64,000 nt of DNA from Halomicrobium zhouii (GTDB lineage Archaea; Halobacteriota; Halobacteria; Halobacteriales; Haloarculaceae). The notes under the pieces were generated by a model, which worked only from the letters and a program-made list of their open reading frames with translations, was not told the origin of the DNA and searched no databases. The DNA lies in contig NZ_FOZK01000002.1 of assembly GCF_900114435.1 (NCBI RefSeq), positions 496,001-560,000 of the forward strand, written 5' to 3'. Position 1 is the stretch's first letter. Each line of letters opens with the position of its first letter. The position numbers were made by a program, and so were the translations under genes. Below, piece after piece: positions 7,001 through 51,754 of the stretch.

Positions 7001-7095
7001 TCAAATCTAGTCAGTCGATTTTCTTTCTTCGCAATTCGAATAGCGACAGCCACTGTTCGATAGCGACTGCGACAATTAGCGGTGGGTGGGACATC

Positions 7096-7190
7096 GAAAG
7101 GGGCCGACCGGTCGTCGAGCGAAAACCACCAAGCACGGCCGCAGGCCGCGCGCAGGTGCGTTCGGAGCCGACGAGCGGGAGGGGGCTTTC
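7096..7190. repeat. Left inverted-repeat arm flanking the frnE-like gene
   Basis: Bases 7096-7110 and 7172-7190 are exact reverse complements of 8190-8204 (15 bp) and 7992-8010 (19 bp). The two pairs are nested around the DsbA-family gene. Between them, 7131-7155 resembles the reverse complement of 8105-8120 (AAGCAC...GCAGGCCG). The motifs match the GAAAGCCC...CCCTTTCAGTCC layout of the elements at 41.2 and 50.8 kb. Confidence 0.7.
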
Positions 7191-7991: not shown

Positions 7992-8204
7992 GAAAGCCCC
8001 CTCCCGCTCGGATCGGGAGGCTCGCTGTCGTTCGAGAGAGCTTCGCTCTCTCGTGATGACGAAAGGCGCAAAGCGCCTTTCGAACCACGCTCCTCGGCCT
8101 GGCGGCCTGCGGTGCTTGCATCGCCTGCCTTCCCCGAGCGGAAGGTCGGCGGAGCCGACCTTCTATAACCTGGCGGCTGCGCCGCCAGGCGGTCGGCCCC
8201 TTTC
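7992..8204. repeat. Right inverted-repeat arm and hairpin cluster upstream of the frnE-like gene
   Basis: The arm begins with GAAAGCCCCCTCCCGCTCG (7992-8010) and ends with CGGTCGGCCCCTTTC (8190-8204), followed by AGTCC. Both are exact reverse complements of the left arm. Between them are four perfect short hairpins: 8033-8053, 8060-8082, 8141-8163 and 8169-8189, each with a small GC-rich loop. The 404-base gap 7878-8281 therefore holds repeat DNA rather than a gene. Confidence 0.75.
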
Positions 8205-8281
8205 AGTCCCGCCCGCTGCGGAAGTCAGTCGGCCGCAACATAGTGGTTAGTTCCCTCGCCTTCGAACCTCTGTGGTCGCTC

Positions 8282-39391: not shown

Positions 39392-41140
39392 ATGGCGTCG
39401 AGCCAGGCCGATAACAGACTCCCGACGACGATCACCGAGACGATAGCCTCGCTCGTCGACTCCTACGGGAAGATGCACATCCCCCTGGAGCGATATCTCT
39501 TCTTCATCCTGCTCCCGTCGGGGGTGTTCTTCGCCCTCTCGGTGGTCGTGGCGGCGCTCGTGGACCTGCCGCTGATGATCCGGCTCCCCATTCCATTGCT
39601 GGGCTTCCTGGCGATGGGGACCGCCGTCATCTACCCGAAGATACTGCTCTCACAGCGGCGCCAGCAGCTGAACGACCGGTTCCACCTCATGGTGACCCAC
39701 ATGACGGTCCTGGCGACGACGAAGATCGACCGGATGGAGGTGTTCCGCACGCTTGCCCGCGAGGAGGAGTACGGCGAACTGGCGAACGAGATGCACCGCA
39801 TCGTCCAGCTGGTCGACACCTGGAACCAGAGCCTCGACGACGCCTGTCGCCGCCGCGCCAAGGAGGTCCCCTCCGACGCCGTCTCGGACTTCTTCGACCG
39901 CCTGGGGTACACCCTCGGCGCCGGCCAGTCACTGGAGGACTACCTCGTCGGCGAGCAAGAGCAGATCATCCAGAACTACTCGACGGTGTACGAGGGGACC
40001 ATGGACAACCTGGAGGTGATGAAGGACCTCTACCTGTCGATGGTCCTCTCGATGACGTTCGCGCTCGTGTTCGCCGTCGTCCTCCCCGTCCTGACGGGGA
40101 CGAACCCGACGATGACCGTCAGCGCCGTCATCGTGATGTACATCTTCGTCCAGTCGGGTTTCTACCTCGCCATCCGGTCGATGGCCCCCTACGACCCGCT
40201 GTGGTTCCACCCCGAGAAGTACCCCTCGCCCGCCCAGGAGCGCATCGACAAGGCGACCTACGTCGGCCTGGGGCTGTGTGCCGTCCTCGCGTTCGTCTCC
40301 ATCGGCGGCATGTTCGGGCTCTCGCCGCTGACGCTGGAGCACGTCTTCTTCTTCATGGACGACGTCCCCATCCCGCTCCATCCGGTCGTCCCCATCACGC
40401 CGCTGTTGATCCCCGGCATCGTCGTCCGCCAGGAGGAACAGCGGATCAAGAGCCGCGACGACGAGTTCCCGAGCTTCATCCGCGCGCTGGGGGCGACGGA
40501 AGGCGCCAAGCAGTCGACGACGTCGAAGGTGTTGAAGTCACTCCGGAAGAAGGACTTCGGCCCGCTGACGGAGAACCTCGACCACCTCTACAAGCGACTC
40601 AACATGCGGATCGAGCCCGAGGGCGCGTGGCGGTACTTTACCGCCGACTGCCGCTCGTACCTCATCCAGACGTTCTCGGAGATGTACCTCGTCGGGCGCT
40701 CGATGGGTGGCTCGCCCAAGATGCTCGGCGAACTCATCGCCAAGAACATGAGCGAGGTGCAACAGCTCCGGAAACAGCGCCAGCAGGCGACGGTCCAGCT
40801 CGTCGGGCTCCTCTACGGTATCACCGCCGCCTCGACGTTCGCCTTCTTCATCGGTCTCCAGGTCGTCAACATCCTCTCTGAGATGACGCTGGGCCTCGAC
40901 TCCACTGCCAACTTCGACGCCGGGTCGCTCATCCACACCGAGGTGTACAACATCCCCCTCATCGAGTTCCTGCTGGTCGTCATCATCATGTTCGGCGCGA
41001 TGCTGTCGGCCCTGATGATCCGGACCGTCGACGGCGGCCACAAGCTCAACACCTACATCCACTTCGTCCTGCTCGCCTGGATCGGCGCGGTCATCTCGAT
41101 CATGACGAAGTGGCTGGTCACGCAGTTCCTCGCGATCTGA
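39392..41140 (+). CDS. arlJ: Archaellum membrane platform protein ArlJ
   Basis: 582 aa with about nine membrane helices in two T2SSF-like blocks. Cytoplasmic basic loops between them (for example KSLRKKDFGPLTENL) should contact ArlI. It starts two bases after arlI and is the last gene of the operon. ArlJ is the only polytopic protein of the machine and is expected to be essential for filament export. The following 615 bases hold a repeat element and no gene. Confidence 0.94.
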   Translation: MASSQADNRLPTTITETIASLVDSYGKMHIPLERYLFFILLPSGVFFALSVVVAALVDLPLMIRLPIPLLGFLAMGTAVIYPKILLSQRRQQLNDRFHLMVTHMTVLATTKIDRMEVFRTLAREEEYGELANEMHRIVQLVDTWNQSLDDACRRRAKEVPSDAVSDFFDRLGYTLGAGQSLEDYLVGEQEQIIQNYSTVYEGTMDNLEVMKDLYLSMVLSMTFALVFAVVLPVLTGTNPTMTVSAVIVMYIFVQSGFYLAIRSMAPYDPLWFHPEKYPSPAQERIDKATYVGLGLCAVLAFVSIGGMFGLSPLTLEHVFFFMDDVPIPLHPVVPITPLLIPGIVVRQEEQRIKSRDDEFPSFIRALGATEGAKQSTTSKVLKSLRKKDFGPLTENLDHLYKRLNMRIEPEGAWRYFTADCRSYLIQTFSEMYLVGRSMGGSPKMLGELIAKNMSEVQQLRKQRQQATVQLVGLLYGITAASTFAFFIGLQVVNILSEMTLGLDSTANFDAGSLIHTEVYNIPLIEFLLVVIIMFGAMLSALMIRTVDGGHKLNTYIHFVLLAWIGAVISIMTKWLVTQFLAI

Positions 41141-41236
41141 CCGACTTCGGGTGGATTCTGTTCGATCAGTTCGTCTGTGAATTGCTCGAGTGGTTCTCGG
41201 TTAAGCTAGTGAAAAGAACAGCGACAACACGACCCG

Positions 41237-41630
41237 GAAAGCCCTCGGCGCGCTCCGGTCCCGCGGCCCACCTGCGCTCCTCGCTGCGCTCCGGTGCTTG
41301 GTGGACCGGGGTTCCCGGACCGCACCTCGCCCTTTCAGTCCTCCGAGGCCCGCACAGCACCGCAGCCCCGCCCTCCCCCTGGTCGCGGCATAAACGCCGC
41401 TTCCGGCCGGGCGGTTGCGGAGCGGTCAGGAAGCGTGACCCGGAGCGGACGCGACGGGTCCGGGGAGGTGTGGGGAGTCAATCGTGAGCGCGTTTTATCG
41501 CGCGAGCGAGGCTGGACCTGGCGGACTGAAAGGGCGAGGTGCGGTCGCGTGGGCTGAGACGGGCCCTATCCGAGCGACGGAGGAGCGAGGATATCCCGCG
41601 CAGCCCGCGTCGAGCGCGCCGAGGGCTTTC
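41237..41630. repeat. 394-bp nested-palindrome element, copy A
   Basis: The outer ends 41237-41255 and 41612-41630 are a 19-bp exact inverted repeat (starting GAAAGCCCTCGG). An inner pair, 41321-41341 and 41523-41543, is a 21-bp exact inverted repeat containing CCCTTTCAGTCC. The centre carries a 27-base core (41411-41437) that is also in copy B at 50.8 kb. Frames crossing it are low-complexity and unconvincing. No transposase and no obvious flanking target duplication were seen. Confidence 0.85.
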
Positions 41631-41755
41631 GACGTGTTCGCGGTAGCGTCAGTCACGTCTCTCTGAACACAGCCGAACGATACGTAGCTCACCTACACTG
41701 ATCGCATCCACACTCCCGAAGAAAATCGCACTGTCAGACCGTCTCGATACCCTGG

Positions 41756-50246: not shown

Positions 50247-50702
50247 TCACTCCTCCGCGGCGGCGCCTTCCAGCTGTCGAACGGTCAGCACGGGCGGCCC
50301 GGACCGTCGGACGACGCCCTCGGCGACGCTCCCCAGCAAAAATCCGTGGTCGTCGTGGCGCCCGCGCGTGCCCGTGACGACGACGTCGGCCTCCTGGTCG
50401 GTGGCGTACTGGCAAATCTCGTCGACGGGGTCGCCCTCGCGGACGGCCGTGACGACGTCGCCCTTCTCGGCCGTCTCGTCTGCCGTCTCGCGAACGAACG
50501 TCAGCGCACGCCCGCCAGCGGTCGCCAGCGCGCGTTCGAGGTCGTCCCTGACCTCGTCGGGCGAGGCCGCCACCTCGCCGGCGTCGACGACATAGAGGGC
50601 GTGGACCGACGCGTCGAACCGCTCGGCCAGGTCCAGGGCCGCCTCCACGGCCCGTTTGGCGCTGGCCGACCCGTCCGTCGCGATGAGTACCGTCTCGAAC
50701 AT
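50247..50702 (-). CDS. Universal stress protein, UspA family
   Basis: 151 aa. The start MFETVLIATDGSASAKRAVE and the ATP-binding loop VTGTRGRHDDHGFLLGSVAE followed by VLTVR are the UspA signature (GxxGx9GS). A single domain that probably binds ATP. Haloarchaea carry many copies; the specific stress is unknown. It is upstream of the DHH gene on the same strand, 61 bases away. Confidence 0.9.
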   Translation of the reverse strand: MFETVLIATDGSASAKRAVEAALDLAERFDASVHALYVVDAGEVAASPDEVRDDLERALATAGGRALTFVRETADETAEKGDVVTAVREGDPVDEICQYATDQEADVVVTGTRGRHDDHGFLLGSVAEGVVRRSGPPVLTVRQLEGAAAEE

Positions 50703-50832
50703 GCAGGAGGGTTGCGCGGGACCCGGCTTAAACTCCCGGGAGAACGCTCGGGAGTCTCTGGTGTGTGGAGCGGGAAGGTTCTCGCTGTAGCGGTTCGGAT
50801 CTCCGCAGGGACGGCAACAGACGATAACACCT

Positions 50833-51263
50833 CGAAAGCCTCGGCGTGCTCGACTCGCGCGAACCCGCTGCGCGCCTCACTCCGTTCGGTGCTTGCGGGT
50901 TCGGGCTTCGCCGAGCCCACCTCGCCCTTTCAGTCCTCCAGGACTCTATTGCTCGCGCCACGGAGGCGCTCGCGATTACAACCACCAGACCTCCCCGGTC
51001 GCGCCTTGCTCACGGCTGGCGCCGTTCGCGGTGAGGTGGCGCTGACGCGCCACCCTCGCGGCGCGACACGCTTCCTGACCGCTCCGCAACCGCATGGCCG
51101 GGAGCGCGTTTCATCGCGCGACCAGGGGAAGGGCAGGGCTGCGGTGCGGTTTCCTGGAGGACTGAAAGGGCGAGGCGGGCTCCGGGAACCCCGGACCGAT
51201 AAGCACCGCAGCGTAGCGAGGAGCGCAGTCGGTTCGCGGGACCGGAGCGCGCCGAGGGCTTTC
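50833..51263. repeat. 431-bp nested-palindrome element, copy B
   Basis: In inverted orientation to copy A. The outer ends (50833-50852 and 51243-51263) are near-perfect inverted repeats of the GAAAGCCCTCGGCG type. The inner pair 50913-50942 and 51153-51182 matches at 29 of 30 positions and contains CCCTTTCAGTCC. The core 51067-51093 equals the reverse complement of 41411-41437 over 27 bases. The gap 50703-51370 has no other recognisable content. Confidence 0.85.
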
Positions 51264-51370
51264 TGGGTGTCGTCGTTCATCGTTCCGACTTCAGCGAGTG
51301 TTCAGAACTATCATCGAAACGCCGCTCTAGAGAAACGATCAGATCGACGAACCCTCTTCCCCCGAAGATT

Positions 51371-51754
51371 TCACACGAATGGAACGCCGACGACGCCCCA
51401 GTCGCCCAGGAGCGGGGCGAGGAAGAACCGGGCGACCAGCACCGAGACCCAGGCGACGAAGGCGATGGCGGCGGCCTCCACCCAGTCGGTGTCGTACTGG
51501 ACGGCGATGACCGTGAGGTAGACGGCCAGTCCCAGGAGGGTCCCGAGGATGCTGCCGATGTGGAACGGAATCCAGCCGACGACGAGCGTCGCGACCAGCC
51601 AGCCGAGCGCGCCGAACACCGCCGTCCACACGGCGGTCCGGAAGTCGCCCTTGCCGACGACGAGCTGGGCGGCGACGAAGATGGCCAGCCCGCCGACGAG
51701 CAGGCCGACGACGAACGTCACTATCGAGCCGAGTACTGTCGCGATAATTTCCAT
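51371..51754 (-). CDS. Four-helix membrane protein of unknown function
   Basis: 127 aa, about four hydrophobic helices covering nearly the whole chain with short loops (GKGDFRT, YDTDW). Resembles many small haloarchaeal membrane proteins without assigned role. No catalytic residues. It lies alone between repeat element B and the AEC transporter gene. Confidence 0.65.
   Translation of the reverse strand: MEIIATVLGSIVTFVVGLLVGGLAIFVAAQLVVGKGDFRTAVWTAVFGALGWLVATLVVGWIPFHIGSILGTLLGLAVYLTVIAVQYDTDWVEAAAIAFVAWVSVLVARFFLAPLLGDWGVVGVPFV

Follow-up and report, generated by a model that had tools for sequence, protein, structure and literature searches.

A doublet hairpin element of Halomicrobium zhouii as a probable old member of a haloarchaea-wide, IS6-type MITE family with an RNA-structured module

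Introduction

Two copies of a non-coding, palindromic element are found in a 64,000-nucleotide stretch of the Halomicrobium zhouii genome, the whole of which is called the window here, and they raise the question of whether such a repeat is a mobile element, a structured RNA, or both. MITEs are usually viewed as passive ends with filler between them. The two loci are probably old copies of an IS6-type MITE family that is spread across the haloarchaea and carries an RNA-structured module, an overall reading in which we have fairly good, though not full, confidence. An internal hairpin whose one-strand fold is kept by compensation throughout an archaeal order, together with a sense bias, suggests a selfish element with an RNA function that allows it to live between transcribed genes. 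The host group is genetically tractable, so the idea of an RNA function can be tested there.

Layout of the two window copies

Copy A (41237-41630, 394 nt) and copy B (50833-51263, about 431 nt) were confirmed at these positions and are inverted relative to each other (Table 1). The layout described in an earlier note on this DNA, with outer GAAAGCCCTCGG ends and inner CCCTTTCAGTCC pairs, is present in both copies, the one exception being the left end of copy B, which is short of one C. The 27-base core, also claimed to be shared, is indeed identical, the stretch in copy A being the exact reverse complement of that in copy B. Exact pairing is borne out for the 19-nt outer arms of copy A, which are 100% complementary; the inner arms are 86% complementary over 36 nt in copy A and over 57 nt in copy B. 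A size of approximately 400 bp holds for the stretch originally quoted, but the conserved part reaches ~60-75 nt further on both sides.

Copy A is flanked by an archaellum FlaJ-like gene (39392-41140, T2SSF) on one side and by a small convergent reading frame on the other. The neighbours of copy B are a universal stress protein gene (50247-50702, minus strand) and a reading frame at 51371-51754. Elsewhere in the window, the family is represented by one weakly scoring single unit (Table 1), and an isolated CCCTTTCAGTCC at 8198-8209, beside a hairpin-rich stretch, is probably a decayed single unit.

Table 1. Positions of the family's features in the window.
Feature	Position	Strand	Basis
Copy A left outer flank (X), conserved among paralogues	41173..41236	.	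paralogue alignment and consensus; start approximate
Copy A left hairpin unit (alpha type), folding strand outward	41237..41341	-	cmsearch R1 111.7 bits, E 5e-23
Copy A core spacer between units, 181 nt	41342..41522	.	
27-base core motif of copy A, identical in copy B	41411..41437	+	
Copy A right hairpin unit, outward	41523..41630	+	cmsearch R1 59.1 bits, E 8e-11
Copy A right outer flank (Y), conserved among paralogues	41631..41705	.	paralogue alignment and consensus; end approximate
Copy B outer flank, low-coordinate side	50775..50833	.	alignment; start approximate
Copy B left hairpin unit, outward	50834..50936	-	cmsearch R1 104.4 bits, E 2.5e-21
Copy B core spacer, 222 nt	50937..51158	.	sequence and unit limits from cmsearch
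27-base core motif of copy B, identical to copy A	51067..51093	-	
Copy B right hairpin unit, outward	51159..51263	+	cmsearch R1 113.8 bits, E 1.7e-23
Copy B outer flank, high-coordinate side	51264..51335	.	alignment; end approximate
Single unit of this family, weak	7091..7190	+	cmsearch R1 29.3 bits, E 6e-4

The hairpin within each arm

Each arm forms its own hairpin, a unit of roughly 105 nt that reads 5'-GGACTGAAAGGGCGAGG...CCGAGGGCTTTC-3'. When 52 arms were analysed by RNAalifold and by pair counting, 26 pairs were obtained, 15 of which show two-sided changes, with 97.4% of the cells paired. In the shuffle-based statistics, which are inflated by the kinship of paralogues, covariation in these arms amounts to 0.412, compared to 0.143 in shuffled and at most 0.042 in slid alignments. 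The corresponding values for 36 units from other loci, mostly of other genera, are 0.481, 0.132, and at most 0.064, with two-sided changes at 20 pairs, in an alignment that was fitted to the model. Four adjacent stem pairs within the arm are matched at 75-97%, versus 47-80% after shuffling, and after the stem is slid by a single base, the pairing, otherwise 0.845, is no higher than 0.48. More than 10 distinct stem sequences are seen, each accompanied by its own complement in the arm.

The strand on which the fold is maintained could be deduced from the distribution of G.U-type cells, which number 87 on the outward strand versus 12 on the inward strand. Further sets gave counts of 53 versus 4 and 27 versus 3 for the outward and the other strand. 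The fold is therefore that of a single strand reading outward from the core. Two internal loops contain tandem G-A that is near-invariant on both strands (G14 A15/G99 A100 and G28 A29/G85 A86, numbered by the first sequence of unit alignment A1). In sequence, these loops are reminiscent of sheared-GA or kink-turn-like motifs, which could be recognised by an RNA-binding protein.

No covariation was detected between the arms that belong to a copy, the value being even negative. Arms of the same copy are less alike than arms taken from different copies (z -6), and none of the 76 doublets is of the alpha/alpha type (P 8e-6), an absence that is perhaps caused by the instability of long perfect palindromes. 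The proposal of a selected fold is supported by compensatory change within each arm, but not by the two arms together, between which covariation is absent and pairing is avoided.

Distribution and gene context

The element is present twice inside the window, as the earlier note had it, but not genome-wide; with one copy as a query, at least 40 places are matched in the window genome (G000). The motif CCCTTTCAGTCC (B motif) occurs there 141 times in exact form (67+74), compared to 0 for a reversed-pattern control. A total of 76 complete two-arm copies was collected, 46 from the window genome and 30 from its sister, the Halobacteria archaeon HArc-gm2 (G006), which we take to belong in Halapricum. 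Among the genome contigs searched, a 23-mer of the 27-base core is found outside the window genome only in HArc-gm2. The half-element model reaches far more widely: of 117 genomes drawn from the whole order, 81 are matched, many of them with 20-30 scored matches, in a patchy distribution that leaves 36 without a match. No match to the model was obtained in about 100 genomes from elsewhere in the phylum, and a search of phages, plasmids, and viral contigs yielded two weak plasmid arms and otherwise no matches. The family is absent from Rfam, where no match attained the gathering score and sub-threshold matches were unrelated, and among the haloarchaeal papers listed by literature searches, neither the A, B, and TIR strings nor a specific description of the family was found.

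As judged with a crude gene caller, none of the 76 complete copies overlaps a predicted gene; 23 copies are flanked by a convergent, 31 by a co-directional, and 19 by a divergent gene pair. Tandem 51-nt modules are present at the ends of some copies. Every one of the 31 close pairs in 374 kb of the window genome and 400 kb of HArc-gm2 is outward-facing, and 12 single units occur in addition; one inward-facing pair (L081) is known elsewhere. Single units between co-directional genes (n=24) are sense in 21 cases and antisense in 3 (p 0.0003), an orientation bias that depends on the same home-made gene caller.

Several candidate roles and partners were rejected. A pure 3'-end terminator is at odds with the copies that sit between divergent genes. 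The interior of the long-spaced pair L081, considered as an autonomous partner, consists of ordinary genes. When other genes bounded by Y were sought in the window genome, the new Y match that was inspected proved to be another copy of the family. A link to RAYT or TnpB was discarded as well, the PF01797 (Y1) and TnpB genes of the window genome having no flanking unit pairs.

IS6-type ends and target duplications in relatives

In relatives, the unit-bearing elements are bounded by a terminal inverted repeat (TIR) of ~17-18 bp, GGYRGTGTTCAGATAAG and its complement, which is common to a 0.7-kb IS6-family insertion sequence. Elements with this TIR occur in G001, G002, G003, G005, G007, G012, G078, and G098. 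An exact 8-bp target duplication (TSD) accompanies 17 of 27 elements, and 3 more agree at 7 of 8 positions, whereas random pairs gave 1 in 5000. Congeners of the window species (G001, G002, G003, and G005) are among the genomes with both TIR and TSD. Single-unit elements are mostly 216-228 bp long and doublet elements mostly 307-374 bp. Three elements of 687 bp (measured between TGTTCAG cores) in G098 have the same TIR together with TSDs, and these encode an IS6-family transposase (NF033587 transpos_IS6, E 2e-59; PF13610). Intact IS6 copies are found in G004 and G098, and one frameshifted copy with related ends is present in the window genome. The earlier statement that no transposase is near is correct for the surroundings of the two copies, but relatives do have matching IS6 transposases, and a broken one lies in the window genome itself.

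Just inside the left end of the IS6 element of G098 (L233 175-260) lies GGATTGAAAGGTGAGGCGG, which is very like the 5' end of the unit, GGACTGAAAGGGCGAGGCGG; given this likeness, the unit may have been derived from the leader of the insertion sequence. A 120-bp derivative in G007 (L240, G007:C1:2314132-2314251) keeps the TIRs and the two feet of the unit, and has lost the hairpin and shows no target duplication.

Old copies in the window lineage

Most copies, both window copies included, are located at orthologous positions in the window genome and HArc-gm2, and therefore recent movement there is not supported. Presence and absence differ at 4 sites, two of which resemble insertion or clean loss, while two keep outer arms or remnants and resemble internal deletions. 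The same gene pair without the copy-A element is found in G004. Target duplications in the two genomes were seen at 0 of 24 aligned ends, and a count over all offsets gave 27 chance 8-mers, compared to 28.8 in shuffled sequences. Exact TGTTCAGATAAG is absent from both genomes. The possibility that the X and Y ends are IS6 ends was rejected, since their profiles match nothing in the end sequences of the relatives.

The window copies would belong to the MITE family by the homology of their units. They are old, and we infer that they were mobilised by IS6; the missing target duplication is expected for old insertions. The idea of a mobile element is supported by the TIRs and exact 8-bp duplications of relatives, but not by the window species' own copies, which have no target duplication.

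Proposed mechanism and alternative explanations

An IS6-type transposase acting in trans presumably moves the MITEs, whose module is present singly or as an outward doublet with a spacer of small or large size (181 and 222 nt in the window). IS6-type DDE transposition is not known to require an internal hairpin. Because of this, and because single units are mostly sense relative to their neighbouring genes, the hairpin fold appears to matter in RNA, namely in read-through transcripts. A doublet would offer one sense unit whichever the direction of transcription, and may in this way make insertions tolerable to the host. Tentatively, and at rather less than even odds, the hairpin could serve in read-through transcripts as a functional RNA module, for example in processing, stability, or termination, that makes intergenic insertions tolerated, with the outward doublet as its orientation-independent form. 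In the window lineage, the family appears to have spread before the split from HArc-gm2 and then to have decayed, whereby ends would have diverged, target duplications been lost, and arms recombined, been inverted, and gained extra hairpins.

The fold could instead be selected at the level of DNA, if the elements were REP- or REPIN-like inverted palindromic doublets that a REP-associated Y1 (HUH) transposase mobilises as single-stranded hairpins. The inverted doublets with a spacer, the singlets, the extragenic location, and the high copy number are all shared with REPINs (PMC3116915). However, the units of ~105 nt far exceed the length of a REP, TIRs shared with a DDE transposase and target duplications fit a MITE rather than a REPIN, and the Y1 transposases of the window genome mostly adjoin IS605-type tnpB, none being located within an A/B motif pair, which makes this origin quite improbable. 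It is harder still to believe that no fold was selected and that the arms were kept alike passively, through template switching, gene conversion, or inversion. Arm duplications and interior inversions relative to the flanks do happen, but a passive process should not leave arms of one copy less alike than those of different copies, nor eliminate alpha/alpha doublets, and the G.U asymmetry requires a strand-specific process.

Order-wide covariation with one-strand G.U asymmetry, the sense bias of single units, and the conserved tandem-GA internal loops would also suit a host-serving family of regulatory or housekeeping ncRNA genes, or a 3'-UTR or terminator element, with mobile features that are secondary. 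This explanation is given some weight and is nonetheless considered unlikely, in view of the patchiness across the order, the inconsistent gene context, the transposon ends and duplications on the elements, and the lack of an Rfam match.

Comparison with known systems

Transcribed MITEs of bacteria, such as ERIC, NEMIS/Correia, and BOX, are intergenic, palindromic, and modular, and RNA-level effects have been reported for them. The present family, likened to them by description, differs in its hosts and in an order-wide covarying unit arranged in outward doublets, which is specific to it. With archaeal IS6 MITEs, the elements of the relatives have in common a TIR of ~17-18 bp shared with an IS6-family element and 8-bp TSDs; differences are that each of the elements described here carries one or two covarying hairpin units, and that the window lineage has longer cores and different ends. 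IS6 elements generate 8-bp duplications, and the family listing includes two MITEs with lengths of 227 and 336 bp (PMC7986276), a range into which the single-unit and most doublet elements fall. IS6-family MITEs have been named MITEBth2 and MITEHarch3, the latter being the haloarchaeal one, in ISfinder (PMC6807381); the likeness to MITEHarch3 is one of size, and identity with it is a lead only.

The RAYT-associated REPINs and BIMEs are similar in their inverted hairpin doublets, variable spacer, singlets, extragenic position, and many copies (PMC3116915), and different in that the present family has units of ~105 nt, IS6-type TIRs and 8-bp TSDs in relatives, and no RAYT association. PATEs of Haloquadratum walsbyi are likewise transposase-free palindromic repeats in a haloarchaeon (PMC3119063). 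They are IS605-related, however, and are devoid of ITRs and target duplications, in contrast to the IS6-related TIRs and 8-bp duplications in relatives here.

Rearrangements at the elements

Between the window genome and HArc-gm2, two pairs of loci (L010/L114 and L023/L116) have conserved flanks around an element interior that is inverted, and one HArc-gm2 copy (L119) joins the flanks of two copies of the window genome (L087 and L029), as the endpoint of a chromosomal rearrangement. The elements therefore act as recombination sites, and they mark breakpoints and inversions in these genomes. In G001, two inverted copies that are 15 kb apart (L294, G001:C1:317919, and L299, G001:C1:332970) have swapped 8-bp duplications, AGCCCAGC/CTGGCGAA and GCTGGGCT/TTCGCCAG, which is a signature of inversion through recombination between copies. 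The element at the FlaJ locus of HArc-gm2 (L123 3357-4210) is swollen by extra small hairpins, tandem duplicates included, and the same 60-nt insert is found in both of its arms in the same direct orientation. In another copy (L095 1074-1183), it is on the opposite strand that the interior of the left-arm hairpin fits the model, as though this interior had been flipped within its feet.
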